From: an uncultured Flavobacteriales bacterium
Lineage (GTDB): Bacteria > Bacteroidota > Bacteroidia > Flavobacteriales_D > Crocinitomicaceae
DNA: 64,000 nt
NCBI GenBank assembly: GCA_905480145.1
Contig: CAJQPA010000003.1
Coordinates: forward strand, 1-64,000
Direction: 5' to 3'
The translations under genes were made by a program, and so were the position numbers. The notes beneath the pieces were generated by a model that saw only the letters and a list, made by a program, of their open reading frames with translations, had not been told where the DNA came from and searched no databases. Shown here one piece after another: positions 6,552 to 28,583 of the stretch (its first letter is position 1; every line of letters begins with the position of its first letter).

Positions 6552-7151
6552 ATGAAAATCCCAGTTACGATATATACAGAAGTCACTCCTAATCCTTCAA
6601 CAATGAAGTTTGTTGCAAACAAGCATCTTTTAGGAGCTGGTGATTCTGCAGAATTTAATTCACAATCAGAAGCGAAAGGATATTCTCCATTAGCGGCAGA
6701 ATTATTCAATTTACCTTTTGTCAAAGGTGTTTTTATCGCTTCTAATTTTATTACAATTACAAAAACAGATAATCTTTCATGGGATTTCATTACAATGGAA
6801 TTGCGCGAATTTATCCGTGAATGGATTTCAAATGGCAATGAAGTTTTAATTGCGATGCCATCGAAAATTGCGGTTGTTGAAGATGGTTCTAATGAACCCA
6901 AAAAAGTTTACGCTGCATCAGAATACGACGATGCTATTTCTGATTTATTAGATCAATATGTTCGTCCTGCTGTTGCTGGAGATGGAGGAGCGATTGATTT
7001 TAGAGGTTATAAAGATGGAGTTGTAACTGTTTTATTAAGAGGTTCTTGCGCTGGATGCCCTTCGAGCACAGCGACGCTTAAAGGTGGAATTGAAAGTTTG
7101 CTAAAAGAGCACCTTCCAGACGTTAAAGAGGTGGTTGCTGAGAACGAATAA
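6552..7151 (+). CDS. NifU/Nfu-type Fe-S cluster carrier protein
   Basis: It carries assembled Fe-S clusters to target proteins in the cytoplasm. The first ATG (6552) is preferred over an in-frame TTG at 6534, because the TTG falls inside the -7 promoter element; this gives 199 residues. The N-terminal half (about 1-90) is the Nfu scaffold domain, recognisable by EVTPNPSTMKFVANK and a second block ending NGNEVLIAM. The C-terminal half (about 120-195) is the NifU domain with VAGDGGAIDF and the cluster-binding motif SCAGCPSS. It is likely transcribed alone or with the lipoprotein gene that follows eight bases later. Confidence 0.93.
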   Translation: MKIPVTIYTEVTPNPSTMKFVANKHLLGAGDSAEFNSQSEAKGYSPLAAELFNLPFVKGVFIASNFITITKTDNLSWDFITMELREFIREWISNGNEVLIAMPSKIAVVEDGSNEPKKVYAASEYDDAISDLLDQYVRPAVAGDGGAIDFRGYKDGVVTVLLRGSCAGCPSSTATLKGGIESLLKEHLPDVKEVVAENE

Positions 7152-7159
7152 TACTAATT

Positions 7160-7453
7160 ATGAAGTCAATTGTTCTTATTCTCTCATTAACTTTCTCGGT
7201 CGGATTAATTTCTTCTTGCGGTAAATTCGGAAACAAAATGGAGATCGTAAAAGACTGCACAGGCATTTATCTTCAAAAGGACAATGTAGATTATAAAGTT
7301 TGTAATGAAGAAATACTTGATGGTTATTCTGCCGGAGACAAAATAAAGGTTGAATATGATCTATTAACAGAATGTTTCGGACTCATAGGAGAGCCTGTTT
7401 GCATGTTGTTTCATCCATATGAAAGCAACATTGAAATCACCAAGATTAAGTAA
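7160..7453 (+). CDS. Small lipoprotein of unknown function
   Basis: This 97-residue product has a lipoprotein signal with lipobox LISSC (Cys near residue 20). The mature part of about 77 residues contains four further cysteines (DCTG, VCNEE, ECFG, VCML) and a small beta-rich domain (GDKIKVEYDLL). It is not recognised as a named family. It starts eight bases after the nfu-like gene and its stop codon abuts that of the convergent GLPGLI gene. Confidence 0.7.
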   Translation: MKSIVLILSLTFSVGLISSCGKFGNKMEIVKDCTGIYLQKDNVDYKVCNEEILDGYSAGDKIKVEYDLLTECFGLIGEPVCMLFHPYESNIEITKIK

Positions 7454-8200
7454 TTATAGCCAACTAAACATGGCGTCTAGATCTTTAGGTTTCACCCATT
7501 GACTCATGTTTTTTTCAAGACTTTCTCTTAATTCTGCTTTCGTGTAAACATCGTTTTTTCCGATTTCTCGCACGAGTTTAATAGGATCAGGTTTCTCTAT
7601 CGTAACTTCTTTTGCAAAATAGATGACTCCACCGTCTTCAGTTGCTAAACCAAGAATTGCTCCTGGTAATCCTCCAAAGCCTTCCGGTCCTATAGAAGGG
7701 ACTATGTCCACAGAAAACCAAGCGTAAATTCGAGTAGAATCATTCATGTACCAAATTGCCTTTCTACAATCATAAGAACCAATATTCCGTTTGCTTTCTG
7801 TTACTTTCCATTCCTTTTTAGCTATTGGGTCTTTTATATAGGTGTCTTCTCCTCCAAAGTCCAATATCGTAAGCTTTTCATTCTTACTTAGGTCCATATA
7901 GACATGGTTTTGACTTGTCAAATATCGCGACATCCAACCCCCTTCCTCTTCATCGTCAGAAACGATAGGAATAAAAGCAGACATTGTATCGTTGAAAATC
8001 AGTTCAAATTTTTCGACTTTTGATTTTGTGTCCTTGTTAATAAAGCGCTTCATTCTTTCATCGCCTGCGAATTTCTTCTGAAGATTTGTTTTTCTTTCGA
8101 ACACTATTCTCCCAGATGTTACTTGCGTATATGAAACCGTTGACACTAATGTCAAGGCGATTGCAACTAATAAGTTTTTAATGCATCCCTTTGAAATCAT
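7454..8200 (-). CDS. GLPGLI family exported protein
   Basis: This 248-residue exported protein has a signal peptide ending near SYTQ. It carries the family hallmark GFGGLPGAILGL around residue 190, preceded by WFSVDIVPSIGPEG. The family is restricted to Bacteroidota and its biochemical role is unknown. Members are often encoded directly behind TonB-receptor-like barrels, as here: the start codon overlaps the end of the upstream barrel gene by 23 bases, implying translational coupling. It probably acts in the periplasm or at the outer membrane together with that barrel. Confidence 0.92.
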   Translation of the reverse strand: MISKGCIKNLLVAIALTLVSTVSYTQVTSGRIVFERKTNLQKKFAGDERMKRFINKDTKSKVEKFELIFNDTMSAFIPIVSDDEEEGGWMSRYLTSQNHVYMDLSKNEKLTILDFGGEDTYIKDPIAKKEWKVTESKRNIGSYDCRKAIWYMNDSTRIYAWFSVDIVPSIGPEGFGGLPGAILGLATEDGGVIYFAKEVTIEKPDPIKLVREIGKNDVYTKAELRESLEKNMSQWVKPKDLDAMFSWL

Positions 8201-10949
8201 TTTCTTCTGCTTTTCTATTGTTAAATCTTAAAGTCACTTTTAATAAAAAGTAACGTGATATGATTGTTGTTCTATAATCTGTAATAATGTTTCCATTTAC
8301 CTGTCGCGAAGCATTAATGTTTTGATTCAATAAATCTTTACCAACTAATGCAACAACTAAGTTGTTCGTCTTCAAAAAGGATTTACTTACTTCAGCATTC
8401 CATACAAAGTACTCAAGATTATAGAATCCTTTCCCTTCCTGTGTGTTCTTTGTATAAGTACCTTCAGAGGCAATAACAAAGCCTTTTGGCATTCTCCATT
8501 TGAATCCAATTTCATATTCTTGCGTTGAAAAAGGTGAGTTAGAAACACTACTTAATGAGCTCGTAGGATTGTTGTATGACCAATTGTTTTTGATTCCAAT
8601 CTCTAAAGAATCAAATTCAATTTGAAAATTAATATTACCACCAACAGAAATATTATCCGTTTTGTTTTCTGCGTCTTGAATAAAGCTTACGTTCCGATTA
8701 AATGAAGAATTTAATCCTGGTCGCAGTGTTAACTTTCTGCTGAAAAAAGGGAAACTACCCCAAGCATATAGTCCAGAGTTTATGTTTCCATCAACATTTA
8801 CAGTTTTAGAAATTGTTCTTCCGAGTAAATCATACTCCGTTGAATTACCAAATGCATTATCAACAAAATTAATGTTCGCTCTTCCTCCAAAATACTGTCC
8901 TTTCATTGCTTTAAACGAACCGAATCCGAGTGTAAGTGAATGCGTATAGTTCGGAACTAAATCTGGGTTTCCTTCTTGAATTCTATTCGGATTGGTGTTG
9001 TCAGTGACCGGAGCCAAGGCATTGATAGACGGTTGACTAGAGCTTGTTCTATAATTCAATGTAATGTTAGACACCTTACTAGGGCTAAATTCATATCTGA
9101 ATCTAGGCAACACATTCGTAAAGTTTTGATGTATTTCAGATCCATTTATCTTATTCACATTAAGGATGTCAATATTACGAACTCTTGCACCAAAATCTAA
9201 ACTGTGCTTCCTTGTTCCAAAAAGAAGTCTTAATCCTGCCCGATGCTGCTGACGAGTATTTTCAAATACATTTGATAAATCTGCTCTATAGCCGGTATAT
9301 GCTCCGTTAATTTCATCGTATGCCTCCTTGTCTTGTTGGCTGAAACCATTTTCGTAAAGGTATTCAACCTCCAATCGTAAAGATTTTGACAAGGGCTCGA
9401 TATATACCAAATTTCCATAATGACTTATTGAAGAATTATCATTTATCTTTTCTTGGTCCGTTATAGAATCGTTCAGAGTGTTAGCAATAGTTCTCGAATC
9501 GAGTTTCTCATCCGTTGCATTATCGGAAAGTGCGACATTGTATCTAAGCTCTAATTCCCTCTTTTTCTTTTTGAATTTTCTCTTCAATTTTACTGAACCA
9601 TCTAGACTGTAACCTTCTGAATCCGTTGAGTTATCAATCTGTGTTCTCAAAGATTCAACCCCATCAAATCCTATAAATTTATTCACTTCTGTATTATCTT
9701 GTTTGCCTAAATCATATCTGAAGGCCGGTTTAATTTCAAGTGTCGTTAATGAATCAAGCGGTGTTACAAATTTGATGTTAAAGCGGTGTGATTCATCCCT
9801 AGAAAAATTTCGTGTAGAATCATCCGTGAAATACGTTGTGTCTCTCAAGAAATATTCTGATCTACTTGATGAAATTGCTTCCAATTGAGTATTGTAATAC
9901 GAATAATTGGCATTAAATTTCATTCGTTTTTTCTTTCCAATTTTATCACTGAAATAGATTCCGGCTTTAAAGGTTTGAGGAATACCACTTGTGTTACTCG
10001 TTCCGTCTTCCCAAAATCTTCGACCCGCTCCATCCTCATTGTTTAATCCAAACTTCCTCATATCACCGCCAGCAAAATTTGATGTTGGTGTATTAGATCC
10101 TAATGCAAATACGGATATTTTCTTCGAGCCATCAAATTTATTCAAAAGCATTTCTCCTTCAAAAAATGGATTGGTTCCAATTTCTCCATCTATTGGTGTC
10201 AGCGCAAAATCTGATGCACCAGAGATTCTTCCAAAGTATCCTTTTTTAGCACTCTTTTTTAATCGAAGATCAAGAACCTTAATTTTTTCATCGTCCCCAC
10301 CTATTGCATCCTCATTCTCCTTTTCGTATACCTGCACCGTTTCGACTCCATCAGCACCAAGGTTTTTTGTAGCCACTGTTGGGTCAGTTCCAAAAAACTC
10401 ATCCCCATCAACCAAAACTTGGTCAATATCTTGCCCTTGCGATGTTATTTTACCCTCTTTATCGATATCTAACCCAGGTAATTTCTTTAGTAAATCTTCT
10501 ACTACTGCTCCTTCCCAAACTTTAAACGAGTCTGCCACATACACAAGAGTGTCACCTCGATAAAAAATTGGATTTTGGTTTGCGTAAATAATCACCTCTT
10601 CAAGTTCTTGCGATTTTCCTGGCATTTTAATGCTTGGAATAATGATCTCATTATTCTCTGCATGACCAAACATGTAATAGGTTTTCTCATCAAAAGAAGG
10701 ATGATCTATAATCAAAGAAAAAGTGTCGACTGCAAAGCCGTCCAATGTAAAAGTACCATCATGAGAAGATCTGGTAAAACCCAAAAGCAAAGAATCTTTC
10801 ATTCTCACGGCCATGACCATTGCATTTTTAATTGGTCGAGCACCGGTTGTGTCATAAACAGTTCCTTTCACAGACATTTCCTGTGAAAAACCAAGAGTGC
10901 TAAAACATAAAAACATTAGGCCTATCACCCAACTATTGAAGTTCATCAT
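8178..10949 (-). CDS. TonB-dependent receptor-like outer-membrane barrel
   Basis: The ATG at 10949 is preferred to the upstream in-frame TTG; another ATG follows directly at 10946. The product has about 923 residues. It contains a signal peptide ending GFSQ, then a carboxypeptidase-regulatory-like domain (VKGTVYDTTGARPIKNA). A plug-like region follows with DLLKKLPGLDIDKEG, QVLVDGDEFFGTDP and GVETVQVYEKENE. A long beta-barrel fills the rest and ends in alternating aromatic strands. This is the large receptor-like barrel subgroup that is usually paired with GLPGLI proteins. The transported substrate is unknown, and I see no polysaccharide-utilisation genes nearby. Confidence 0.88.
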   Translation of the reverse strand: MMNFNSWVIGLMFLCFSTLGFSQEMSVKGTVYDTTGARPIKNAMVMAVRMKDSLLLGFTRSSHDGTFTLDGFAVDTFSLIIDHPSFDEKTYYMFGHAENNEIIIPSIKMPGKSQELEEVIIYANQNPIFYRGDTLVYVADSFKVWEGAVVEDLLKKLPGLDIDKEGKITSQGQDIDQVLVDGDEFFGTDPTVATKNLGADGVETVQVYEKENEDAIGGDDEKIKVLDLRLKKSAKKGYFGRISGASDFALTPIDGEIGTNPFFEGEMLLNKFDGSKKISVFALGSNTPTSNFAGGDMRKFGLNNEDGAGRRFWEDGTSNTSGIPQTFKAGIYFSDKIGKKKRMKFNANYSYYNTQLEAISSSRSEYFLRDTTYFTDDSTRNFSRDESHRFNIKFVTPLDSLTTLEIKPAFRYDLGKQDNTEVNKFIGFDGVESLRTQIDNSTDSEGYSLDGSVKLKRKFKKKKRELELRYNVALSDNATDEKLDSRTIANTLNDSITDQEKINDNSSISHYGNLVYIEPLSKSLRLEVEYLYENGFSQQDKEAYDEINGAYTGYRADLSNVFENTRQQHRAGLRLLFGTRKHSLDFGARVRNIDILNVNKINGSEIHQNFTNVLPRFRYEFSPSKVSNITLNYRTSSSQPSINALAPVTDNTNPNRIQEGNPDLVPNYTHSLTLGFGSFKAMKGQYFGGRANINFVDNAFGNSTEYDLLGRTISKTVNVDGNINSGLYAWGSFPFFSRKLTLRPGLNSSFNRNVSFIQDAENKTDNISVGGNINFQIEFDSLEIGIKNNWSYNNPTSSLSSVSNSPFSTQEYEIGFKWRMPKGFVIASEGTYTKNTQEGKGFYNLEYFVWNAEVSKSFLKTNNLVVALVGKDLLNQNINASRQVNGNIITDYRTTIISRYFLLKVTLRFNNRKAEENDFKGMH

Positions 10950-11039
10950 AATTTGAATATTAATCAATTACAATGATATAGAATTAAACCGGGATGAACA
11001 TATGAAATTTGCTCAAAGGTTTAATATGAATTTGAGCGG

Positions 11040-11825
11040 TTATTTTTTACTCACCGACATAAGAATTTGGTAAACATAACCTTGGGCCCCATTCAAAGTT
11101 TCGTAATCAACGCTAAGCTGTGTGCCCATCATTTCTTCCTGATTGTTTTGCAGTTTTTTAATTAGCGGTGTCATCAATTGAACGACTAGAGAAGAATAAT
11201 ACCCTCCCGGTTTATTTTCACCTACAATCATATATAAGTATGGTTTTTCTTCAATGAAACCCTGAAAAGTAGTCTCAAACTGTCCTGTTTGATTGAGAAT
11301 TTCTAACGGTTTTTTGTAACTCAAGGCTTGTTTATCTACGATCGAAAATTGCTCGTAGTCTAAATTGTCTTCATATGGAGCAACTCTCCTTTTCGTAACA
11401 ATTGGTTTTTCATTGGTATCATAATATGTTTTGCGCTCTACAAAATGTCCGTTTTCAACTGTGCCTTCTTCGAATAACTCTTTTGAGGCAATCATTACAC
11501 CATCATTAAAATGATATGTGTTAGAAGAAAGACTTGGACCATTCGGTAAAGTATATTCATGGTATATTTTTACAGTCACATTCGAATCGTTCACAAAAAC
11601 GGTCACTTCTTCTGTTGCTCCGTCATCTCTGGTATAGAATAGACTTTTCCCTTCTCTTAGCGACTCATCCGTATCAATGGCCTCGATTATTACTTCGAAC
11701 TCTGTTTCTTGTTCACTTGAGCTATCCATCAATTCAGAATTCACATGTTCTACAATTTCGTCATTCTCCCCACAACTGTATAATCCGATTGCTAAAATCC
11801 CGATAATTAAAAAGTTAAGTTTCAT
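11040..11825 (-). CDS. Lipoprotein of unknown function
   Basis: A 261-residue product with a lipoprotein signal (lipobox LYSC, Cys near residue 18) and an acidic, low-complexity linker (about residues 20-50). A globular domain follows, rich in beta strands (SLFYTRDDGATEEVTVF, TVKIYHEYTLPNG, GQFETTFQGFIEEKPYLYM). It is not recognised as a named family. It is a single gene between the TonB-like barrel and the initiator tRNA. A TACTTTTG -7-like element occurs at 11865-11872 on the minus strand. Confidence 0.75.
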   Translation of the reverse strand: MKLNFLIIGILAIGLYSCGENDEIVEHVNSELMDSSSEQETEFEVIIEAIDTDESLREGKSLFYTRDDGATEEVTVFVNDSNVTVKIYHEYTLPNGPSLSSNTYHFNDGVMIASKELFEEGTVENGHFVERKTYYDTNEKPIVTKRRVAPYEDNLDYEQFSIVDKQALSYKKPLEILNQTGQFETTFQGFIEEKPYLYMIVGENKPGGYYSSLVVQLMTPLIKKLQNNQEEMMGTQLSVDYETLNGAQGYVYQILMSVSKK

Positions 11826-11914
11826 AAAAAATGGTTTTGTTTAAATTGAGAATACATCTTAACACAAAAGTAACAAGAATAAAAAAACATTTTTAAATTT
11901 ATTTGAGTAAACAC

Positions 11915-11944
11915 TTGTCTTTTTGAGAAAATGCGGTATCTTTG
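11915..11944 (+). promoter_or_regulatory. Promoter of the initiator tRNA gene
   Basis: TTG at 11915-11917 and TATCTTTG at 11937-11944 are separated by 19 bases. This is a textbook match to the Bacteroidota -33/-7 promoter, about 30 bases upstream of the mature tRNA 5' end. Confidence 0.8.
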
Positions 11945-11972
11945 CACCGCTGTTAGCAATAACAGATTATAT

Positions 11973-12045
<73 letters not shown>

Positions 12046-12050
12046 CACAG

Positions 12051-12082
12051 AAAGCCTTTCCATTTTGGAGAGGCTTTTTTTA
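12051..12082 (+). terminator. Terminator of the initiator tRNA gene
   Basis: The hairpin AAGCCT-T-TCC / GGA-G-AGGCTT is followed by a run of T residues, starting six bases after the tRNA. Confidence 0.85.
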
Positions 12083-12100
12083 TTGCAACAAAAACCCATT

Positions 12101-12496
12101 CTACCGAACAACTTTAATATCTCCACTTATTTTACACACCACATTCAAGGTATTATAAATAGTTCCAAATTTTTGAATGTTTCTGAGCAAAAGGTCTTTG
12201 TTTAATTTTGAATCAGAACTGTTAATCTCAATTTCATATGTAATTACGTTTATCATAGGTGGTTTGTCTTGTCTCTCGGCATTTACAATTATTTCCGCAT
12301 GATTATATTCAAACTTCATCATCTCAGAAAAGCGCTCTATATTCTTTAAACAACACGCCGCGAAAGCTGCTACTAAAAGTTCTGCTGGACTTGGTAATTC
12401 AGATTGTTTGGTCACTCCAAATTTAATGTTATTCGCCCCTATTTGAGTATCACCTTGTGATACAGCGGATGACTTTGACACCAATCTATATTTCAT
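12101..12496 (-). CDS. OsmC-family peroxiredoxin-like protein
   Basis: The ATG at 12496 is preferred over an upstream in-frame TTG, giving 131 residues. The protein fits the OsmC/Ohr fold: the motif PSPAELLVAAFAACCLKNIE carries the first reactive Cys, and NVVCKISGD near the C terminus carries the second. OsmC-type proteins reduce organic hydroperoxides with paired cysteines. The subgroup and preferred substrate cannot be read here. It stands alone between the tRNA and a secreted protein gene. Confidence 0.88.
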   Translation of the reverse strand: MKYRLVSKSSAVSQGDTQIGANNIKFGVTKQSELPSPAELLVAAFAACCLKNIERFSEMMKFEYNHAEIIVNAERQDKPPMINVITYEIEINSSDSKLNKDLLLRNIQKFGTIYNTLNVVCKISGDIKVVR

Positions 12497-12743
12497 AAAA
12501 TCCCTTTTAAACAATATCGCAATTATACTTGAGTATTACAATCAATAAAGTTGAATAAAGAAGTATGCACCATTTTATTATGATCGCTAGGTAACGTATG
12601 CTACTTGATGGATAAAATTCTTGTGAAATTTGGAGTCAAGGAAGGTGACACGATTTACTCTATCTAGCTTTAAATAGATGTGACAATTTCAACTGTTTTT
12701 CTATCATAAATTATTTTAACTTTATGAATCAAAGAATATTAGC

Positions 12744-13160
12744 ATGAAATATAATCTATTACTCCTTTTAACTCTCCTTACTCAGATAAGTTTTTCTCAA
12801 GAAAAGACCTCTATTTTTGAGAATTATGAAGACTCTACCTCCTATAAAATTGTTTTTCGTGTTGAGAAAAATGATGGAGATAGGTATATCGCTCTAGATA
12901 ATTTGACAATTAGGGCAAAAGGAAATGATACCAAAGTATACTATATGCGCTATGGTGATGGACTAGTATCTAGTCTAATGATTCCCGAATTAATATTGCA
13001 AGACATCAAGGATTTTGAGCAAAAAATATATGACAATAAATGTGGCGAAAATTGTGAACTAAGTGTTCTCATTGAATTTGGCGTGAAAAAAATTCGCATT
13101 CCGATTGATCTTCTTCAAGAAGAAATTGCAACAAATTTCATGTTGTTTTTGGAACAATAA
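12744..13160 (+). CDS. Small secreted protein of unknown function
   Basis: A 138-residue product with a clear signal peptide (MKYNLLLLLTLLTQISFSQ). The mature domain has a Cys pair, KCGENCELSVLIEFG, and an amphipathic C terminus. No family is recognised. The upstream gap (12497-12743) holds a TAACTTTA box close to the start, a weak promoter candidate. Its stop codon abuts the convergent dehydrogenase gene. Confidence 0.7.
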   Translation: MKYNLLLLLTLLTQISFSQEKTSIFENYEDSTSYKIVFRVEKNDGDRYIALDNLTIRAKGNDTKVYYMRYGDGLVSSLMIPELILQDIKDFEQKIYDNKCGENCELSVLIEFGVKKIRIPIDLLQEEIATNFMLFLEQ

Positions 13161-13161
13161 T

Positions 13162-16083
13162 TTACTTCAAAGCATTCCATAGGATCTCAACAGGATGCAA
13201 GGCATCTCTGTCTGTTCCGTCTTTAATTTGGTGACGACAAGATGTTCCTGCAGCAGCAATAATTGAATCGTTAGGCTCTTTTCTTATTGATGGAAATAAG
13301 ACTAGTTCTCCCATTTTCATAGAAATATCATAATGTTCCTTTTCATATCCAAAAGAACCTGCCATACCGCAACATCCACTTGGGATATTCAAAACTTTGT
13401 AGTTCTTGGGAAGTGACAACATTTTCTTTGGGGCAACCAGCGTCGAAAGTGCTTTTTGATGACAATGGCCATGTAAACGAACAGTTTTATTTTCATCTGT
13501 AAATAACGTTGAATCAATGTTTCCTTTGTCTAGTTCTGACGCTAGAAATTCTTCAATTAAGAATGAGTTCTCAGCAAGATTCTCAGCTTTGGCTTTTAAA
13601 TCATCATTGACTAAATCTAAATACTCATCTCTCAAAGTTAAAATAGCTGATGGTTCAATTCCGACAATAGGACAGTTTTCAGAAACTACTTTTGACAGTG
13701 ATTTTACATTTTCAATGGCCAAATTTTTTGCTTCTTTCAATAATCCTTTTGAGAGATATGTCCTCCCACTTTCGTTGTGCTCAGGTATCACAACTTGATA
13801 ACCCAGTTTGTTTAGAAGTTTAATTGAAGTAATTCCAATTAGGACATCATTGTAATTCGTGAATTCATCATTGAACAAATGCACTTTTCCATGCTTAAAA
13901 GGTCCTTCTTGGTGGTGCTTTTTAAACCACGCATCCAATGTGTATTTATATAACAATGGAAGTTTTCTTTCTTTGGCAACTCCCAATACTGACTTTATGA
14001 TCCTAGAAGTTAATGCATTCTTCATCATGAAGTTATAGACACCTGGGGTTTTAGATGCGAGTTGATTTGATTTGGTAACGGTAGCAAAACGTTTGGTTCT
14101 TCTCGATACTTTATTCGTTTGATAATATTGATGCGTGAACTCCGCCTTCAATTTTGCCATGTCAACATTCGAAGGACATTCAGATTTACAACCTTTGCAA
14201 GAAATACAAAGATCCATCACCTCTTTCACTTCTTCACTATCGAATTTGTTCAACTTAGGGTTGGTCGTTAGCACTTCTCTAAGAATATTAGCCCTTGCGC
14301 GAGTAGTATGCTTCTCTTCCTTTGTAGCCATATAAGATGGACACATTGTTCCACCACTTAACTCTGTTTTTCTGCAATCTCCAGATCCATTGCAACTTTC
14401 AGCTGCTCGAAGAATACCATCGTTTTTATCGAAGTTGAATTCTGTTTTGAACTCAACATTTTCGTAACCAGGCATGTATCTTAAGAAGGTATCCATTGGA
14501 GGTGTATCGACAATTTTACCTGGATTAAAAACAAGATTCGGATCCCAACTTGCTTTAATTTTCTTGCATAATTCGTAATTATGCTCGCCAATCATTAAGG
14601 GAATAAACTCTCCTCTCAAACGACCGTCTCCGTGCTCTCCGCTCAAGGAACCTTTGTATTTTTTCACTAAATGGGCAATATCCGTTGCTATAGTTCGGAA
14701 CATTTTATTCCCCTCTTGCGTTTTTAAATCTATTATTGGTCTCAAATGTAATTCACCTGTTGCGGCGTGTGCATAATGAACACAATACAAATCGCGTTCT
14801 TTGAGAATAGCATTAAATTCTTGAATGAACTCAGGTAAATCTTGCACATCGACTGCTGTATCTTCAATAACAGCAACTGCTTTTGCATCACCTGGAATAT
14901 TTGATAACAAACCGAGTCCAGCTTTACGAAGCGTCCATACTTTTGCGACATCGGAGCCATAAACCAATGGGAAATGATAACCCAAATTCAACGAGCGCAT
15001 TGCTGCTTCTATTTCTTTGGCAACCTCTAGTACCTCATCTTTTGTGTTTCTTGCAATCTCAACGACTAATATTGCCTTTGGGTCGCCCTGAACGAAAAAA
15101 CGATTCGCCCTTTGTTCAATATTATCCTTTGTACACTCTAGGATATAATGGTCCATTAACTCGCAAGCCGTTGGCCCAAATTTTAACGCCTCTAAATTTC
15201 CTTTTAAGGCTTCGTTGATTGAGTCAAAATGTATACAAACTACTCCGACAGCCGGCGGTAAAACCGGCACTAAATTCAATTTCAATTCTGTGATAAACGC
15301 CAATGTTCCTTCAGATCCTGCAATTAATTTGCAGAAATTAAATTCTTCTTCCCCATCCTTAAAAGGAGCCATATTACCTAGAATGTCTAGCGCATATCCT
15401 GTATTCCTTCGTGGAATTGAACTTTTCGGAAACTTGTCCTCTATTTCTTGTTGATTCTTAGCATCACTAAAAATGTGTTTTGTTGCTTTATATATTTGAG
15501 TCTCAAGGTCACTTACTGTTCCTATTCCTGCAGCTTTCGCATTGAATTCTTCCGTAGAAATTTTCTTAAATGTTGTTTCTGAACCATCTGCTAAAATTGC
15601 TTTCACCTCTAATAAATGTTCTCTCGCAGAACCATAAATAAGGGATCTAGATCCACATGAATTATTTCCTACCATTCCAGCAATCATACATCTGTTTGAT
15701 GTTGAAGTTTCCGGTCCATAGAATAGGTCAAATTGTTTTAAATGAAGGTTCAATTCATCACGGATTACACCAGGTTGAACCCAAACAGAGGAGTCTTTTT
15801 CGTCTACCGATAAAATCTGAGTGAAGTGTTTAGAGATATCCACTACAATTCCATTTCCAACCACTTGCCCGGCTAAAGAGGTGCCGGCTGCACGAGGAAT
15901 TATACTCGTTTTATTGTCTCTAGCAAACTCGATTAGTCGTAATAAATCGTCCTTGCAAGAAGGAATAGCTACAGCTAATGGTAATTCACGATAAGCACTT
16001 GCATCCGTTGCATATAACTTACGCATTGTATCATCAAAATACAATTGCCCTTTTATACTTTTTGCGAGTGATTGAAGATTCAT
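13162..16083 (-). CDS. FAD/Fe-S D-2-hydroxyacid dehydrogenase, YdiJ-like
   Basis: This 973-residue enzyme has three parts. The FAD-binding PCMH domain (about 30-270) carries PRAAGTSLAGQ and GNNSCGSRS. The FAD-oxidase C domain (about 270-530) has SGEHGDGRLRGEF. The third is an Fe-S region, with CNGSGDCRK...MCPSY and CISCKGCKSECP, plus CCG-type motifs (HGHCHQKAL, SGCCGMAGSFGY). The layout matches YdiJ/GlcD-type quinone-linked dehydrogenases. E. coli YdiJ oxidises D-2-hydroxyglutarate; D-lactate or glycolate are alternatives. The gene follows the fused SerB-SerA gene by 11 bases and is very probably cotranscribed. This context favours D-2-hydroxyglutarate as the substrate. Confidence 0.88.
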   Translation of the reverse strand: MNLQSLAKSIKGQLYFDDTMRKLYATDASAYRELPLAVAIPSCKDDLLRLIEFARDNKTSIIPRAAGTSLAGQVVGNGIVVDISKHFTQILSVDEKDSSVWVQPGVIRDELNLHLKQFDLFYGPETSTSNRCMIAGMVGNNSCGSRSLIYGSAREHLLEVKAILADGSETTFKKISTEEFNAKAAGIGTVSDLETQIYKATKHIFSDAKNQQEIEDKFPKSSIPRRNTGYALDILGNMAPFKDGEEEFNFCKLIAGSEGTLAFITELKLNLVPVLPPAVGVVCIHFDSINEALKGNLEALKFGPTACELMDHYILECTKDNIEQRANRFFVQGDPKAILVVEIARNTKDEVLEVAKEIEAAMRSLNLGYHFPLVYGSDVAKVWTLRKAGLGLLSNIPGDAKAVAVIEDTAVDVQDLPEFIQEFNAILKERDLYCVHYAHAATGELHLRPIIDLKTQEGNKMFRTIATDIAHLVKKYKGSLSGEHGDGRLRGEFIPLMIGEHNYELCKKIKASWDPNLVFNPGKIVDTPPMDTFLRYMPGYENVEFKTEFNFDKNDGILRAAESCNGSGDCRKTELSGGTMCPSYMATKEEKHTTRARANILREVLTTNPKLNKFDSEEVKEVMDLCISCKGCKSECPSNVDMAKLKAEFTHQYYQTNKVSRRTKRFATVTKSNQLASKTPGVYNFMMKNALTSRIIKSVLGVAKERKLPLLYKYTLDAWFKKHHQEGPFKHGKVHLFNDEFTNYNDVLIGITSIKLLNKLGYQVVIPEHNESGRTYLSKGLLKEAKNLAIENVKSLSKVVSENCPIVGIEPSAILTLRDEYLDLVNDDLKAKAENLAENSFLIEEFLASELDKGNIDSTLFTDENKTVRLHGHCHQKALSTLVAPKKMLSLPKNYKVLNIPSGCCGMAGSFGYEKEHYDISMKMGELVLFPSIRKEPNDSIIAAAGTSCRHQIKDGTDRDALHPVEILWNALK

Positions 16084-16094
16084 TTCCTTAAATT

Positions 16095-17990
16095 CTAATA
16101 TAAGATACGATATCGTAAAGTATTTGGTATTTCTCTTAATTTTCGTTCCAATTCAACATTGTGAAAGTTATCAATATCTGTGATAACATACCCCATGTTT
16201 TCATTCGTTTTTAAATATTGACCCAATATATTATTATCATACTCCAGTAAAATATTATTGATCTGCGCTAAGACACCTTTCACATTCTCATGGATATGCA
16301 TTATTCGATGAGCCCTTTGTAATTCAGGAAGTTGTATTTGGGGAAGATTCACACTTCCATGAGTAGATCCCGTGTTTATATATTGAATAATTTTTTTTGC
16401 AACACTATTACCAATATCCAATTGTGCTTCTTCGGTACTTCCTCCGATATGTGGCGTTAGTATCACATTTTCAAACCCTTTTAATTCAGAAATAAATGGT
16501 TGCGAATTCGTTCCTGGCTCCTCAGGAAAAACATCAACTGCTGCGCCTCTAATCTTTCCACTTTTCAAATTTTCAATCATCGCTTCGATATCTACCACAT
16601 GACCTCTAGAAAGATTTAAGAATACCACTCCGTCTTTCATTTCTTCGAATGCTCGTTTATCGATGATATTCGCATTTGATTCTCTGCCGTCAACGTGCAA
16701 CGATACAATATCAGAAACCGCAAGTAATTCTTTTAAAGAAGAACACTTTTTTGCATTTCCCAATGCCAATCGATCAACGACATCATAAAAGTATACTTCC
16801 ATCCCTAAAGATTCTGCAATGATAGAAAGTTGAGAGCCGATAGATCCATAGCCTACAATTCCCAATTTCTTTCCCCTGATTTCAACACTTCCGTTTGCGG
16901 ATTTATCCCATTTGCCATTGTGCATTTTGACACTTTTCGGGAAAATATTTCTCAAAAGCATAATCATTTCACCTATAGCAAGCTCCACAACGGACCTTGT
17001 ATTACTGTACGGCGCATTAAAAACTGCAACACCTTTATGACAACAATCGTCTAGGTTCACTTGGTTGGTTCCAATGCAAAACGTTCCAACAGAATGCAAT
17101 TTGTTGGCGCATTCTAGTACCTTTTCAGTGACATGTGTTTTAGAACGGATTCCAAGAATTGAAACATCTTTTATTCTTTCACAAAGTTCATCTTCTGTCA
17201 AGGCACCACTCAAGGTCTCAACACTATATCCTTCATGCTCGAACACTTTCTTTGCATCGGTATGAATGTTCTCTAATAAAAGTACTTTTATTCTATTCTT
17301 AGGATAAGAAACCGATGCTTTGTAAGATAAATCATATAAAATCTCATCCAAAGATGGGGCGACCCTATCTGCTTTCTCAAGCACTACTTTTCTACTCACA
17401 TTCTCCGTATACGCATAAAATTTTGAGACGACTCCTTCTTCAATTGTTTCATAGTCCGTGTAACCATCACCAATCATTATTACATCTCCCCCTAATTCTA
17501 AGCCTTTGATTTTATGGACCTTTCCTTTGTTCTCACATAATTCGTCTTTCTCATCGAAACCAATGATATTTCCATCGTGATCAAATTTAAAAGTATTCGC
17601 TAAAACATTCTCTGGCTTGATACCATACTCTTGCACAATTGGAATAATTATTTCTTTAAAACCGTTTGATATTATATAGATATCGTCTTTGTGTTGCTTA
17701 AAGAATGTGCGATTTCTTATTACAGAAGGAGAAACTTTGTTCTTCAGCAACTGAATAGTGTCACCTAAATGATCTCGATTCGCTTTTAACAATTGAATGC
17801 GTTTAGTCAATGATTCTTTGAGTGACAATTTTCCTTCCATGCCCATGTCTGTCAATGATTGTATTTCGGAAAGAATTTGTGCACCAGCCGCGCTATCATG
17901 GTAAATAACATCACACAGAATATCGAGTGCTTCTACTCTGATAAATGTACTGTCAAAATCAAAAATGAAGGTCTCTTTTTTTAATTGCAT
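16095..17990 (-). CDS. serA: Phosphoserine phosphatase-phosphoglycerate dehydrogenase fusion
   Basis: The 631-residue protein joins two serine-pathway enzymes. Residues 1-225 form a HAD phosphatase with all motifs intact: DFDST (Asp11, Asp13), SNGF near 108, Lys in ENKGK near 155, and GDGYTD (Asp175, Asp179). Residues about 235-550 are a D-3-phosphoglycerate dehydrogenase with the NAD-binding GYGSIG (380-385), VDVFPEEP, and the catalytic His in PHIGGST. The C terminus (about 555-631) resembles an ACT domain, which in SerA binds serine for feedback control. The fusion covers steps 1 and 3 but not the SerC transamination. SerA enzymes can also reduce 2-oxoglutarate to D-2-hydroxyglutarate. Confidence 0.9.
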   Translation of the reverse strand: MQLKKETFIFDFDSTFIRVEALDILCDVIYHDSAAGAQILSEIQSLTDMGMEGKLSLKESLTKRIQLLKANRDHLGDTIQLLKNKVSPSVIRNRTFFKQHKDDIYIISNGFKEIIIPIVQEYGIKPENVLANTFKFDHDGNIIGFDEKDELCENKGKVHKIKGLELGGDVIMIGDGYTDYETIEEGVVSKFYAYTENVSRKVVLEKADRVAPSLDEILYDLSYKASVSYPKNRIKVLLLENIHTDAKKVFEHEGYSVETLSGALTEDELCERIKDVSILGIRSKTHVTEKVLECANKLHSVGTFCIGTNQVNLDDCCHKGVAVFNAPYSNTRSVVELAIGEMIMLLRNIFPKSVKMHNGKWDKSANGSVEIRGKKLGIVGYGSIGSQLSIIAESLGMEVYFYDVVDRLALGNAKKCSSLKELLAVSDIVSLHVDGRESNANIIDKRAFEEMKDGVVFLNLSRGHVVDIEAMIENLKSGKIRGAAVDVFPEEPGTNSQPFISELKGFENVILTPHIGGSTEEAQLDIGNSVAKKIIQYINTGSTHGSVNLPQIQLPELQRAHRIMHIHENVKGVLAQINNILLEYDNNILGQYLKTNENMGYVITDIDNFHNVELERKLREIPNTLRYRILY

Positions 17991-18069
17991 CGGTTACTGA
18001 TTTTAGTATTCGTAATAGATAGACTTGAGCGATACGGTCATTTCAACATTTTTCCTATTACAAAAGAAC

Positions 18070-18876
18070 TTAATTCATTTGTAAATTTAGGTCTGTACTT
18101 TCAAATATTTTATTTGCCGAGTCTGCATGAAACCCCATAAACATTTCTCCTTTTTCGTTTTCAAATCTTCTAGCGAATTCATAAAAACAGGTAGGAATAG
18201 AATAACTCCCTTCTTCAAAGTTCATTTCTTGTATATCGGCTAATGTACTCGACTGCTCCAACAATAGCTCAGCAGAGCCTTTTACTTCTCCACCAGAAAT
18301 ATTTAATGGGTATCCTGAATCTTTAACAAATTCATTCACATCTTGAATAGTTTCGAATTGTTCTAACGAGTTAACAAATACCGTAAAATGATTAACACGA
18401 ACACCATAAGCATAAGTCCAAGCTGCATATTCAGACTCAGCACGAAGGGTTTGATAAAGTTCATATGAAACATTCTCCCATAACCTTCCCATAGTGGCTA
18501 GATTAGTTCTAAATATGGATGGGTCAACAGAGTTTAAAGCATTATTAATGATGCATTCCAATTGAGTTGAGCACTGCTCCAACATCAACTGACTGATAAA
18601 AACCAATGGTGCATTGTCATCATTTTTATTTTGATAGTGCTTTGCTTCCAATTTTTTCTCAGGAAACTCATAGGTCATTACTTCCTCATAACCACAGTCA
18701 ATAAAAGAAGCTGCAACTGCATCTATACAAATTCTAGGATCGTTAAATGTTCGCAAAGCGATATGATCATTTTTTAATTTCCCATGGGTAGAAAATAAGT
18801 CATGAATCGTTTGAGCCGAAGGTGTAATTTTCGTATACTCATCCCAAAGAGTGTCAATTAAAGCTGTTGTTTTCAT
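18070..18876 (-). CDS. DUF1338 / HglS-like 2-oxoadipate dioxygenase-decarboxylase family
   Basis: The ATG at 18876 is chosen over an upstream in-frame TTG, giving 268 residues. The protein matches the DUF1338 family of the vicinal-oxygen-chelate fold. Expected iron ligands are in place: His38 in NDHIALRTF, His163 in VNHFTVFV and Glu233 in CFYEFARRF, with Arg42 as the substrate-binding residue. In Pseudomonas putida HglS the equivalents are His70, His226, Glu294 and Arg74. HglS converts 2-oxoadipate to D-2-hydroxyglutarate in lysine catabolism. This protein is of the shorter family type, so its substrate is inferred. The downstream fusion gene begins 79 bases later. Confidence 0.85.
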   Translation of the reverse strand: MKTTALIDTLWDEYTKITPSAQTIHDLFSTHGKLKNDHIALRTFNDPRICIDAVAASFIDCGYEEVMTYEFPEKKLEAKHYQNKNDDNAPLVFISQLMLEQCSTQLECIINNALNSVDPSIFRTNLATMGRLWENVSYELYQTLRAESEYAAWTYAYGVRVNHFTVFVNSLEQFETIQDVNEFVKDSGYPLNISGGEVKGSAELLLEQSSTLADIQEMNFEEGSYSIPTCFYEFARRFENEKGEMFMGFHADSANKIFESTDLNLQMN

Positions 18877-18897
18877 TATTATTATTTTTATACAGTG

Positions 18898-18931
18898 CAA
18901 AATTAACTCAACTGACTCAACTTAAAGACAA
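18898..18931 (-). promoter_or_regulatory. Promoter candidate for the DUF1338 operon
   Basis: On the minus strand TTG and TAATTTTG are separated by 23 bases, the upper limit of the usual spacing, and lie about 22 bases upstream of the start codon at 18876. The region is shared with the divergent Lrp/AsnC gene and is the likely site of regulation. Confidence 0.5.
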
Positions 18932-19027
18932 AAAAAACATACTTTAACTTCAAAATAGTGTTTTTGTGTTATTTTGATTAATTTAACAGTAGATAAAGTA
19001 GCATTTAATTATTTCACCTGTATTTTT

Positions 19028-19498
19028 ATGATTCTAAATAATCAACTTGATTTTATTGACGAAGAAATTCTAAACTTACTACAGAAGGATTCTCGAATTT
19101 CATTCTTGAGAATTGCCGATAAATTAAAGGTGTCAAACTCTTTAGTTCATCAACGAATATCCAAATTAAAAGCAAGGGGTATTATCGAAAATTTTGGAAT
19201 TAGAATCAATCAACAAGCTTTAGGGTATACAACTGGCGTATACATGGGAATTGTTCTTAAAGAAGCACGAATTTCAGATTTTGTCACCAAAGAACTGGAG
19301 AAAATCCCTGAGATAATAGAATGTGATTTAGTTTCTGGACAATACGCGATTTTCGTAAAGATTGTCGCTATGAACAACGAGCATCTTCGAACAATCATTT
19401 ACGACAAGGTACATGTTATAAAAGGTGTGGGCAGCACGAATACTTTTTTCTCATTCAACAAAGAATTTCAAAGAAGTGCGCCAATTCGACTGAAGTAA
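19028..19498 (+). CDS. Lrp/AsnC family transcriptional regulator
   Basis: The ATG at 19028 is preferred over a TTG at 18974, giving 156 residues. An N-terminal winged helix (about 5-60; FIDEEILNLLQKDSRIS, IADKLKVSNSLVHQRISKLKARG) is followed by the RAM effector-binding domain (about 70-145; GYTTGVYMGIVL, SGQYAIFVKI). Members of this family sense amino acids such as leucine, lysine or asparagine as octamers. The gene is divergent from the DUF1338/SerA-SerB/dehydrogenase operon with 151 bases between starts, so it probably controls that operon and itself. The ligand is unknown; lysine is a reasonable guess. Confidence 0.9.
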   Translation: MILNNQLDFIDEEILNLLQKDSRISFLRIADKLKVSNSLVHQRISKLKARGIIENFGIRINQQALGYTTGVYMGIVLKEARISDFVTKELEKIPEIIECDLVSGQYAIFVKIVAMNNEHLRTIIYDKVHVIKGVGSTNTFFSFNKEFQRSAPIRLK

Positions 19499-19509
19499 AA
19501 TTGAGGATA

Positions 19510-20280
19510 CTATTTTTCAGCGATGTAAAACAAATCGATGCATTCATCATTTGCTTCGGCCACAAAGTAGTCCTCTAATTTAATGTGAGCACCACTATCG
19601 CTTAACTTATTTCTATTTCTTCTATTCAAAATATCGTAAGGTACTTGTAACATCCAACGGGGCAGATTATACTGAAGATTTAAGACATCAAAACGCATAA
19701 TTTTGCGCACTGATGCTTTGTTCTCCGCATAATACTTCATTGCAATATCGTTTCCAAAAACACCATTTTTTTGAACGCTTGAAAAGTCTACCAATAATAA
19801 ATCATTCAATTCAGAAACAGTATACTCTCTTATGTGCCATGGGTTTCTTGTCAAAGACATTTTCTTATTCGGTGTGGTATGAATAAACTTACCTCCTGGT
19901 TTCAGAACACGATGTATTTCTTTCACGAATACATCATCTTTCTGAATATGCTCAATTACTTGAAAAGATACTACAAAGTCAAAATGATTATCTGGCAAGT
20001 CAGTCAATGGTGGAACATTCATTTGTCGGAACTCCACATTCTCAATTTCTTTTGCTGCTTTCGCACCCACTTGAGATTCAAATTTATCGATTGTTAAAAA
20101 TGAATCGGCTTGATTGCTGAGTAATTCAATGCCATAACCACTTCCAGTTCCAATTTCTAAAACTTTTCCTGACACCAGCTTAGCTGCCTCGACATAGGCA
20201 AGATAACTTCGCTGAAACACAAAATTATCAGAAACATCTGATTGCGAAACACGTTCCGCAGTTTGAATTTTATTACTCAT
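19510..20280 (-). CDS. Class I SAM-dependent methyltransferase
   Basis: This 256-residue cytoplasmic protein has a Rossmann methyltransferase core: motif I LEIGTGSGYGIELL (about 41-54), the acidic motif LTIDKFES, and VSFQVIEHIQKDD followed by EIHRVLKPGGKFIHTTPN. The core resembles UbiE/Bioc-like methyltransferases of the Methyltransf_11 type. The substrate is not identifiable. It is convergent with the Lrp gene and lies upstream of nothing obviously functionally linked. A TATTTTTG -7-like box lies at 20311-20318. Confidence 0.85.
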   Translation of the reverse strand: MSNKIQTAERVSQSDVSDNFVFQRSYLAYVEAAKLVSGKVLEIGTGSGYGIELLSNQADSFLTIDKFESQVGAKAAKEIENVEFRQMNVPPLTDLPDNHFDFVVSFQVIEHIQKDDVFVKEIHRVLKPGGKFIHTTPNKKMSLTRNPWHIREYTVSELNDLLLVDFSSVQKNGVFGNDIAMKYYAENKASVRKIMRFDVLNLQYNLPRWMLQVPYDILNRRNRNKLSDSGAHIKLEDYFVAEANDECIDLFYIAEK

Positions 20281-20341
20281 AATTTAAAAGCTTAATTCTT
20301 TCAACCTCCACAAAAATAGTAAGATTTGGTTTAGTAATGCA

Positions 20342-21604
20342 TTAATGTGAGACCCAAAGCGTAGGATTAAGACACGTTACTGCACTTCCCGTTACCTTGT
20401 GCAATTCGAAGTGTACCAATGACATGTTTTGCTTGTCTACAGAAAGCAGAGAACCAATAACTTTTTTGGTGCCTACATTGTCTCCTTTCTCAATGTATAC
20501 ATCCTTGAGGTTGCTATAGACTGTTCGGTAGTTACCATGCTTCAAAATAACTACTTTTCCTGCTCCAGGAATATTTAAAATACTGGTTACTTCACCATCA
20601 AAAACTGCTCTTACTTGTGCGTTTTTAGGAGTACTGATATCAATACCTCTATTGTTCGTAAATACATTCTTTAAAGTAGGGTGTGGATTCTTTCCAAACT
20701 TCTCGGTGATACTTCCTTTATCAACTGGCCAGGGCAATTTACCTTTATTTCCTTCAAATGATGCACTCAACCTTAATGACTCTTTTGTCAATGCAAAATT
20801 CGGTGCCTTTGCCTCTGATGCTGTTTTGGGTTCATTCTTTCTTCGTGCTTCCTCAGCTCTTTTTCTTCTCGCTTCTGCTTCAGCGATTTCTCTTTGAATT
20901 GCAGCGCTAATTTTATTTCGTAATATCGTCTTTCTTTTCTCTTCTGCCTTCAGTTGAGCAACAAGATCTTGTTCTTGACTTTTAAACTTTAGGTATACTT
21001 TTTCCTGTTCAATCTTATCCTGTTGAATCGCTGCCCGCTCTTTACTTTTTTCGGTAACTATGACTTTTTTATACGCTTTTTCACTTTCAATGGCTTTTAT
21101 TTCTTCCTTAATTAATGCTTGATTTTGTTTAATCACCAAAAACTGCTTTTGTTGTATTTCAGTAATTCGATCAAGATATTTTTTCCTCTTTATCGCTTCA
21201 TAATAACTATCTGAAGAAACAATAGACATCATTTTTCCATACTTGTTGCGGTGCTTATAAGAATAAAGAAGTAACTTCTTATATTGCAATTTCAATGTCT
21301 CAATAAGAGCATGTAAGTCTTTAATTTCTTGCCCTTTTTTTTCAATTGTTAGCTCAGCACTTCGAATTTGATTGTCGTAATTTTTAAGTAAGCGTTCGCG
21401 ATAAATGATTTGATTTTCAATAACTTTCAATTCGCTCAATGAAGTCTTTGTATTTGTTTTAGACTTATTCAGCAAAGATTTTGTGTCAGCAATTTTGCGC
21501 TCAAGCCTAGCTTGATCTTTTTTCAATTTATCACTCGTAGATTGTCCCTGAACACAAAAAGTGAACAGCAATAAAAACACAAGAAGGCTACTTACATTCT
21601 TCAT
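20342..21604 (-). CDS. EnvC-like murein hydrolase activator with degenerate LytM domain
   Basis: A 420-residue periplasmic protein: signal peptide (to about 20), a long coiled coil (about 22-270, rich in Lys, Glu and Gln), then a C-terminal M23/LytM domain (about 290-420). The zinc ligands appear lost. The usual HxGxD reads NRGID, the YxH motif reads YSN, and the last HxH reads LVH in front of FELH. This pattern matches E. coli EnvC-type activators, which switch on amidases rather than cleave peptidoglycan themselves. The gene overlaps the end of the DUF4292 gene upstream by 17 bases, so they are translationally coupled. Confidence 0.85.
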   Translation of the reverse strand: MKNVSSLLVFLLLFTFCVQGQSTSDKLKKDQARLERKIADTKSLLNKSKTNTKTSLSELKVIENQIIYRERLLKNYDNQIRSAELTIEKKGQEIKDLHALIETLKLQYKKLLLYSYKHRNKYGKMMSIVSSDSYYEAIKRKKYLDRITEIQQKQFLVIKQNQALIKEEIKAIESEKAYKKVIVTEKSKERAAIQQDKIEQEKVYLKFKSQEQDLVAQLKAEEKRKTILRNKISAAIQREIAEAEARRKRAEEARRKNEPKTASEAKAPNFALTKESLRLSASFEGNKGKLPWPVDKGSITEKFGKNPHPTLKNVFTNNRGIDISTPKNAQVRAVFDGEVTSILNIPGAGKVVILKHGNYRTVYSNLKDVYIEKGDNVGTKKVIGSLLSVDKQNMSLVHFELHKVTGSAVTCLNPTLWVSH

Positions 21605-28471: not shown

Positions 28472-28558
28472 ACTGTAAAAGTAGTTAAATTGAAGTAAAA
28501 AGAGATGAGTTAGTAGTGAGAAGTTACAAGAATGGGCGCTAGGTTGAAACCAATTGAT

Positions 28559-28566
28559 TATCTTTG
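28559..28566 (+). promoter_or_regulatory. Candidate -7 element for lysS
   Basis: TATCTTTG, an exact TAnnTTTG match, lies 18 bases upstream of the lysS start at 28584. The -33 element is not clear. Confidence 0.5.
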
Positions 28567-28583
28567 CCCCTTAAATATTTTAC

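Follow-up and report, generated by a model that had tools for sequence, protein, structure and literature searches.

The 64,000-nucleotide stretch analysed here (the window; positions 1 to 64,000 of contig CAJQPA010000003.1, assembly GCA_905480145.1) comes from an uncultured Flavobacteriales bacterium of the Crocinitomicaceae. It contains a block of three minus-strand genes, for an HglS-like DUF1338 protein, a SerB-SerA fusion (SerBA) and a YdiJ-like dehydrogenase, and a divergent plus-strand gene for an Lrp/AsnC-family regulator. The three enzymes may share one metabolite, D-2-hydroxyglutarate (D-2-HG). In humans D-2-HG is best known as an oncometabolite, and in bacteria as a compound that serine synthesis gives off on the side or that lysine breakdown passes through. 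The features of the block are as follows.

13162-16083, minus strand: YdiJ-like dehydrogenase with flavin adenine dinucleotide (FAD) and 4Fe-4S domains, a predicted D-2-HG dehydrogenase (973 aa; from Pfam, NCBIfam and an alignment with E. coli YdiJ)
16095-17990, minus strand: SerB-SerA fusion (631 aa; HAD domain at about residues 1-220, type II phosphoglycerate dehydrogenase (PGDH) at about 225-550, ACT domain at 563-625)
18070-18900, minus strand: HglS-like DUF1338 protein, a putative 2-oxoadipate dioxygenase/decarboxylase (276 aa from a TTG; the probable start is an ATG at 18876, giving 18070-18876)
18877-19027, no strand: intergenic region between the probable ATG starts of the HglS and Lrp genes (151 bp), set against those of 14 other loci
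18898-18905, minus strand: TAATTTTG, a candidate TAnnTTTG promoter element that begins 29 bp upstream of the HglS ATG
18974-19498, plus strand: Lrp/AsnC-family regulator, divergent from HglS (called from a TTG; an ATG at 19028 is the probable start)

The open reading frame (ORF) calls confirm the arrangement given in the initial annotation, with gaps of 11 bp between the YdiJ-like and SerBA genes and 79 bp between SerBA and HglS. The layout is operon-like, as had been proposed: the genes follow each other on one strand at short distances, and none of the three terminator-like sites in 12000-20400 lies inside either gap. Pfam and NCBIfam profiles bear out the identities of all four genes.

The HglS-like protein matches the HGLS profile PF07063 (E 6.9e-25; 88.6 bits against a cut-off of 25), and no NCBIfam family, the HglS equivalogs included, matched it at E 0.001. 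Its alignments with 3lho (E 6.6e-74) and with the hydroxyglutarate synthase FLO7, 6w1k (E 1.2e-32), extend along the length of the protein. The iron ligands and substrate arginine, earlier listed as His38/Arg42/His163/Glu233, are His46/Arg50/His171/Glu241 when counted from the TTG. They align with 6w1k and 3lho and are invariant in all 23 HglS rows compared, so the claim that they are kept holds. From its sequence, the protein should convert 2-oxoadipate to D-2-HG. HglS uses Fe(II) and O2 to turn 2-oxoadipate from lysine breakdown into D-2-HG and CO2, and in Pseudomonas putida the D-2-HG is then converted to 2-oxoglutarate (excerpts of PMC7286885). The window resembles this route from 2-oxoadipate through D-2-HG to 2-oxoglutarate, but its HglS is of the short, 3lho-like type, and the HglS gene forms a cluster with the SerBA and YdiJ-like genes, next to one for an Lrp protein.

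In Pfam terms the fusion consists of HAD, 2-Hacid_dh, 2-Hacid_dh_C and ACT domains. It scores 636 bits with the PGDH family PRK11790 (cut-off 404), which together with the ACT domain makes it a type II PGDH by architecture, and it aligns with E. coli SerA (1yba) over the whole length. The N-terminal part, with its motifs, belongs to the HAD-IB family (TIGR01488, 66.9 bits, cut-off 45) and stays under the cut-off of the phosphoserine phosphatase equivalog SerB (TIGR00338, 63.2 bits, cut-off 144.15). DxDST, Ser and GDGxxD are presumably the motifs of HAD-IB phosphoserine phosphatases, and the motif residues D11, D13, S108, D175 and D179 are present in all 27 rows of the fusion alignment. Among twelve positions to which we assign PGDH catalytic, serine-binding ACT and HAD nucleophile or acid roles, eleven are invariant in the same 27 rows; position 155, chosen as HAD motif III, is not.

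The genome also holds ordinary serine genes. SerC is encoded elsewhere, at 28157-29206 of G000:C5, beside a SerA match at 29536-30099; this short SerA has two 2-Hacid domains only and lacks ACT, which corresponds to type III in the scheme given in excerpts of PMC6300728. A third, unassigned match of 312 aa lies on G000:C11. SerBA as the sole PGDH of the genome was rejected, because serC and a short, ACT-less serA are present elsewhere. Judging by its domains, the fusion is a second PGDH, of type II, beside the short type III SerA. A SerC match was found in all 24 genomes tested (as fragments in G087, G095 and G156), and a short D-2-hydroxyacid dehydrogenase adjoins SerC in 20 of the 24 loci (in G156 as two pieces). 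According to excerpts of PMC9504171, type II PGDHs seem in general to be able to reduce 2-ketoglutarate to D-2-HG, an ability that the type I and III enzymes examined so far do not share. A YdiJ-like enzyme paired with the fusion, rather than with the short SerA, fits this pattern.

The dehydrogenase has the architecture of YdiJ, with a GlcD-like FAD half and a GlpC-like iron-sulphur half in one chain (Pfam FAD_binding_4, FAD-oxidase_C and Fer4_17/8). The best NCBIfam match is 2HglutDHaseYdiJ (NF049975), in two stretches and with 591.8 bits; because this is under the equivalog cut-off of 1350 bits, the protein is called YdiJ-like only. Aligned with E. coli YdiJ over 942 positions, it shows 30.7% identity, and the closest solved relatives of its FAD half by sequence are glycolate oxidase and D-lactate dehydrogenases, with D-2-HG dehydrogenase ranking after them. 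Of the earlier designation as a YdiJ-type D-2-HG dehydrogenase, the architecture and the best-matching family stand, and the substrate is a prediction. Oxidation of D-2-HG by this enzyme is the weakest link of the model set out below. The D-2-HG dehydrogenase of P. putida is, we take it, itself a FAD/4Fe-4S protein of the YdiJ kind. In E. coli and Pantoea, YdiJ is a D-2-HG dehydrogenase (excerpts of PMC9504171).

We consider it somewhat probable (roughly 55%) that the block is a D-2-HG junction, in which the YdiJ-like enzyme would be the shared sink for D-2-HG from lysine breakdown and serine synthesis. HglS, with Fe(II) and O2, would make D-2-HG and CO2 from the 2-oxoadipate of lysine breakdown. 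The type II SerA part would oxidise 3-phosphoglycerate and reduce 2-oxoglutarate to D-2-HG, thereby discharging NADH. The YdiJ-like flavo-iron-sulphur enzyme would return D-2-HG of both sources to 2-oxoglutarate and pass the electrons on, probably to quinone. SerC, encoded elsewhere, would make phosphoserine, from which the SerB part of the fusion would release serine. Lysine carbon, ending as 2-oxoglutarate or glutamate, could supply the SerC transamination, and the serine pathway would be pulled forward. The divergent Lrp protein would act on the shared promoter region and so control the block. Serine synthesis begins with a strongly uphill step (+33.0 kJ/mol is quoted in excerpts of PMC9504171), which coupling to respiration through D-2-HG would pull. 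The reading builds on gene content and order, conservation, co-occurrence, active-site residues and the promoter-GTCA arrangement in relatives. From these we infer all activities, the electron acceptor, co-transcription, the effector and the direction of regulation.

Conservation was examined in two samples. In 150 genomes of the family (thresholds E 0.001 for HglS and E 1e-60 for the fusion and the YdiJ-like protein), HglS was found in 4, the fusion in 7 and the YdiJ-like protein in 6. All four HglS-bearing genomes hold the trio in the same order; in G087 the contig ends inside ydiJ. The second sample took one genome per species and could detect a fusion only where one of two exact peptide patterns was present; it yielded 24 loci (L035, L037 and L038 among them being genomes G069, G087 and G095). 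HglS, SerBA and YdiJ follow each other in order on one strand in 14 of the 24. A divergent Lrp gene accompanies 13 of these 14, with no Lrp match in L035; in L034 all four genes are present in permuted order. Ten of the 14 trio loci are named Flavobacterium (aquicola, taihuense, aquariorum, laiguense, davisii, granuli and four further species). The trio occurs in at least five different gene surroundings: those of the window, of G069 and G095 (with two outer genes in common), of seven Flavobacterium loci that share trpS-side neighbours, of L046, L049 and L050, and of L047. In the window, L039 and L040, a gene of one enoyl-CoA-hydratase-like family is found some kb from the trio. With ordered trios in 14 of 24 loci and in at least five surroundings, chance or a sequence artefact was rejected as the origin of the arrangement. 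The gaps within the trio range from a few bp to about 330 bp, and in L049 about 1.5 kb with small ORFs separates HglS from SerBA; because the gaps vary, a single transcript is not certain everywhere.

Some of these loci have peculiarities of their own. In L047, a metagenome-assembled genome whose label, Limnohabitans, is that of a betaproteobacterium, the trio and Lrp gene at 6927-14803 have a DDE transposase (PF01609) as their neighbour; the contig may be mis-binned or the block mobile. In L049 (Flavobacterium davisii, genome G156), the YdiJ match is in two frames and SerC is in three pieces, one with stops, owing to gene decay or assembly errors. In genus group g10 of the window's family (L035, L038, L043, L042, L045), the labels conflict between Chryseobacterium gleum and Flavobacteriales bacterium.

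Across 395 Bacteroidia genomes, the genes of the block tend to occur together. With a threshold of E 1e-100, the YdiJ-like protein is found in 56 genomes. With genomes treated as independent, it is present in 14 of 19 HglS genomes and 42 of 376 others (Fisher p 2e-9). Genomes with a type-II-like SerA carry it in 35 of 86 cases, the others in 21 of 309 (p 5e-13); type-II-like SerA is present in 12 of 19 HglS genomes and 74 of 376 others (p 8e-5). Excluding the window's own genome, the values are 1e-8 (YdiJ and HglS), 1.5e-12 (YdiJ and SerA) and 2e-4 (HglS and SerA). For the SerA tests, 15 of 101 genomes that match only over residues 3-334 were set aside, and the 86 kept include unfused SerA; with the 15 included, YdiJ is present in 39 of 101 and 17 of 294 genomes. 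These associations bear on the substrate of the FAD/Fe-S enzyme. Were it another D-2-hydroxy acid, such as D-lactate or glycolate, the common D-2-HG theme would be wrong. The 31% identity to E. coli YdiJ, the score below the equivalog cut-off and the glycolate oxidase and D-lactate dehydrogenases at the top of the solved relatives speak for such a substrate. We hold it to be improbable, given the two-stretch match to YdiJ as the best NCBIfam family and the association of YdiJ with both HglS and type-II-like SerA.

The D-2-HG junction also agrees with the company that HglS keeps elsewhere. PF07063 was found in 19 of the 395 genomes, and 20 HglS regions were fetched from the 18 genomes other than the window's own. 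A lysine-catabolic or D-2-HG dehydrogenase gene lies near HglS in 13 of the 20. It is a piperidine-6-carboxylate dehydrogenase homologue in nine (five from one genus; one homologue that was scanned scored 829.8 bits with NF050084, cut-off 730), and in six of these nine a saccharopine-dehydrogenase-like gene stands between or beside (one member profile-scanned). YdiJ is adjacent to HglS or one gene away in three regions (L137, L143, L144), a GlcD-type FAD enzyme is nearby in one (L154), and in another (L148) a Lys1-like lysine-ketoglutarate reductase (3ugk, E 8.2e-94) is found together with a saccharopine dehydrogenase. In the remaining seven regions (L138-L141, L153, L155, L156), whose other genes carry no annotation, the comparison saw no lysine or D-2-HG neighbour. 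A saccharopine dehydrogenase gene also follows the trio in G069, 109 bp after ydiJ. The D-2-HG theme and the lysine link of the initial annotation are thus supported. The window's own genome encodes a piperidine-6-carboxylate dehydrogenase (800.6 bits, cut-off 730) and a saccharopine-dehydrogenase-like protein.

Two HglS regions resemble the block in other ways. L154 (7370-10204) has the layout Lrp, HglS, GlcD-type FAD dehydrogenase, similar to the window with a different class of candidate D-2-HG dehydrogenase. L137 (8363-13345) has on one strand a long HglS (NF049974, 693 bits, cut-off 550), then an Lrp gene and then a YdiJ-like gene, another way to assemble a similar gene set.

The lysine context of HglS, together with the presence of SerC and a second, ACT-less SerA elsewhere in the genome, would also suit an operon that serves lysine in the first place. 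HglS and the YdiJ-like enzyme would then catalyse the last two lysine steps, and SerBA would be mainly an NAD-dependent enzyme interconverting D-2-HG and 2-oxoglutarate in either direction (the reverse being an outlet for NADH), not one for serine. One assay relies on the NADH that SerA forms from D-2-HG (excerpts of PMC8651671), which speaks for this reading. Against it, the HAD nucleophile and acid and the serine-binding ACT positions are kept in 27 of 27 rows, and the gene directly after the fusion in L051 is SerC-like (3ffr, E 2.5e-110); both point to serine synthesis. We therefore regard this explanation as unlikely, if the strongest of the competitors, and retain the D-2-HG junction.

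For the control region, 15 of 22 intergenic regions were kept; six near copies and L137 (630 bp) were dropped. The Lrp/AsnC protein has an AsnC-type helix-turn-helix and an AsnC_trans_reg ligand domain, as expected for the family. TAnnTTTG, which we take to be a promoter element consensus, lies upstream of the first gene in 14 of the 15 regions (shuffles: mean 3, largest 7). Apart from the window, 13 of 14 regions contain it, and in 12 it stands 29-47 bp ahead of the first gene. In the window, TAATTTTG is one of 96 TAnnTTTG matches, 86 being expected by chance. The element runs directly into GTCA (TAnnTTTGnGTCA) in 10 of 15 regions and in none of 300 shuffles, and TGTCAAA/TTTGACA occurs in 13 of 15 regions, with 18 sites against 1.3 expected; because the patterns were picked after viewing the sequences, and from related loci, the shuffles make the enrichment look stronger than it is.

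A number of observations weigh against the D-2-HG junction, or against its being general. The sites are one. The TGTCA motif was not found in the window's intergenic region, where TAATTTTG alone stands at the right place; the window's Lrp is 47-49% identical to the compared trio copies, so its site may differ. In trio genomes, neither TAnnTTTGnGTCA nor TGTCAAA was found upstream of piperidine-6-carboxylate dehydrogenase (13 regions, one of only 102 bp) or saccharopine dehydrogenase (12 regions). A wider Lrp regulon was accordingly rejected, and the lack of sites before these two lysine genes means that the regulator is probably local. In G058, which has Lrp-SerBA only, TAnnTTTGnGTCA is present before piperidine-6-carboxylate dehydrogenase. 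The lysine genes themselves are not markers of the trio: the piperidine-6-carboxylate dehydrogenase is present in 24 of 24 genomes and the saccharopine-dehydrogenase-like gene in 23 of 24, with or without it, and HglS would be an added branch. No YdiJ match was obtained in 51 of the 86 type-II-like SerA genomes, nor in five of the 19 HglS genomes (three of the five being only 69-84% complete), and the co-occurrence tests ignore relatedness, the genomes not being truly independent. Finally, SerA of Achromobacter denitrificans reduces 2-ketoglutarate to D-2-HG in vitro, and deletion of serA and/or d2hgdh left D-2-HG levels and growth without serine unchanged (excerpts of PMC8651671); activity need not mean flux.

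The distribution is a second source of doubt. In the 18 same-genus genomes listed, no match to any of the three was obtained (E 0.001 for HglS, E 1e-60 for the others), and general conservation within the genus was rejected. The expected conservation in other Flavobacteriales thus held for the 14 of 24 loci and failed within the genus. The trio is distributed sporadically, and its absence in the same genus together with its presence in other groups suggests transfer or repeated loss. Partial blocks also exist, in L030, L031, L042, L043, L045 and L051. L042 and L043 have Lrp-SerBA; L045, L048, L051 and L052 have the fusion without other block genes, L048 and L052 being cut by contig ends; L053 is a distant SerA. 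L030 and L031 show SerBA-YdiJ; L030 begins 393 bp before SerBA, and its block may extend further upstream. Such pairs with no HglS in view would be expected if the operon served serine synthesis and its dehydrogenase detoxification, HglS being a passenger or using 2-oxoadipate that leaks from other pathways; SerA is among the common d2hgdh neighbours (excerpts of PMC8651671). This account is difficult to reconcile with the retention of HglS in 14 of 24 loci, with its proximity to YdiJ or lysine/D-2-HG genes in regions without adjacent SerBA, and with Lrp-HglS itself being a recurring divergent pair: in L152-L155 an Lrp gene diverges beside HglS without adjacent SerBA, and in L152 the next gene is piperidine-6-carboxylate dehydrogenase. 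We give it little credence compared with the D-2-HG junction.

The fusion, moreover, is not specific to the block. It matches in 101 of the 395 Bacteroidia genomes, in 53 as one nearly full-length piece. Fusions of other Bacteroidia have the same fused architecture as the window's, mostly at 51-60% identity, but differ in context: HglS or YdiJ was near the fusion in none of the 40 regions fetched from the 52 other full-length-fusion genomes (four regions being shorter than 14 kb owing to contig ends). These 40 regions contain a SerC-like gene in six cases and, in one case each, a partial GlcD-like match and a weak aldehyde-dehydrogenase match. The earlier assignment of SerB-SerA to the operon is therefore sound as to identity, with the qualification that many Bacteroidia have the fusion, as a rule with neither HglS nor YdiJ close by, and that it is a second PGDH here. 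We infer that its ancestral job was serine synthesis. Stand-alone SerB was uninformative as a marker, as five same-genus genomes without the fusion also gave no TIGR00338 match at 1e-8.

Related forms of the fusion were encountered on the way. In 14 genomes of family f42 and in G172, open frames of 424-501 aa align with only part of the fusion, beginning at residues 3-6 and ending at 327-334, with 40-45% identity; they comprise the HAD domain and a partial or different C-terminal part. In L145, L146 and L150 (one genus), serB and serA are separate genes with a few bp between them, in effect a split version of the fusion, and lie about 6.6-8.2 kb from a cluster of HglS, saccharopine-dehydrogenase-like and piperidine-6-carboxylate dehydrogenase genes.

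The window's copy of the block may have a history of its own, as judged from pairwise identities that cover part of the trio loci. Its SerBA is 73-80% and its YdiJ 65-66% identical to other trio copies, the others being 73-96% identical among themselves for each protein. The divergence of the other two proteins is a further point against the D-2-HG junction: the window's HglS is 48-53% identical to compared trio copies that are 68-87% identical among themselves, and for Lrp, at the identity given above, the copies among themselves reach 64-77%. In the HglS tree, the window's copy groups with L154 and L155, away from other trio copies. A test of a common origin with the other trio copies on this tree gave an approximately unbiased p of 0.0005 (0.0136 with L152 and L153 admitted to the clade, L156 in). 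Without the long branch L156 the p value is 0.22 and a common origin is not rejected, though the group of window, L154 and L155 keeps support of 94/99; the same test for Lrp gave 0.38. The HglS tree thus suggests independent assembly of the window's operon, which is not upheld without L156 nor for Lrp. Replacement of the Lrp-HglS half, or fast evolution, is possible.

Each half of the D-2-HG junction is already known, and the combination appears to be new. In the Pseudomonas stutzeri coupling of SerA and D-2-HG dehydrogenase, a type II SerA makes D-2-HG and a FAD dehydrogenase returns 2-oxoglutarate, as proposed here; compared with the P. stutzeri, E. coli and Pantoea systems, SerA is here fused to a SerB-like domain and encoded beside a YdiJ-like gene, and HglS is added (excerpts of PMC9504171). 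Known d2hgdh neighbourhoods (serA, gntR, etf, cdaR, lldP, glcF) likewise place serA beside a D-2-HG dehydrogenase gene, but have a GntR-type regulator, and HglS is not named among those described in the excerpts of PMC8651671. The other half is the HglS step followed by conversion of D-2-HG to 2-oxoglutarate. A combined HglS-SerBA-YdiJ operon was not found described among the papers listed in the literature searches (at most 20 each), which covered few subscription papers. In its full form our proposal, which we put slightly below even odds, is a dedicated D-2-HG operon atop the ordinary serine genes: SerB-SerA and HglS would feed one YdiJ-like dehydrogenase, and lysine respiration would be tied to serine synthesis by a single metabolite and by a single Lrp-type switch, which would act at a promoter adjoining GTCA sites.

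If true, an operon joining both sources to one sink would show that lysine breakdown and serine synthesis run together, and it suggests one clean-up step serving both pathways. Since the genomes also hold a short ACT-less SerA, they could show in a natural setting whether a D-2-HG dehydrogenase is required where a type II SerA is present. The block also provides a candidate regulator, and the prediction is directly testable in cultured Flavobacterium species.

Elsewhere in the window, the minus-strand gene at 43759-49086 encodes a protein of 1775 aa that carries six stretches of SprB repeats and, for type IX secretion, a CHU_C signal; it is likely a surface adhesin.

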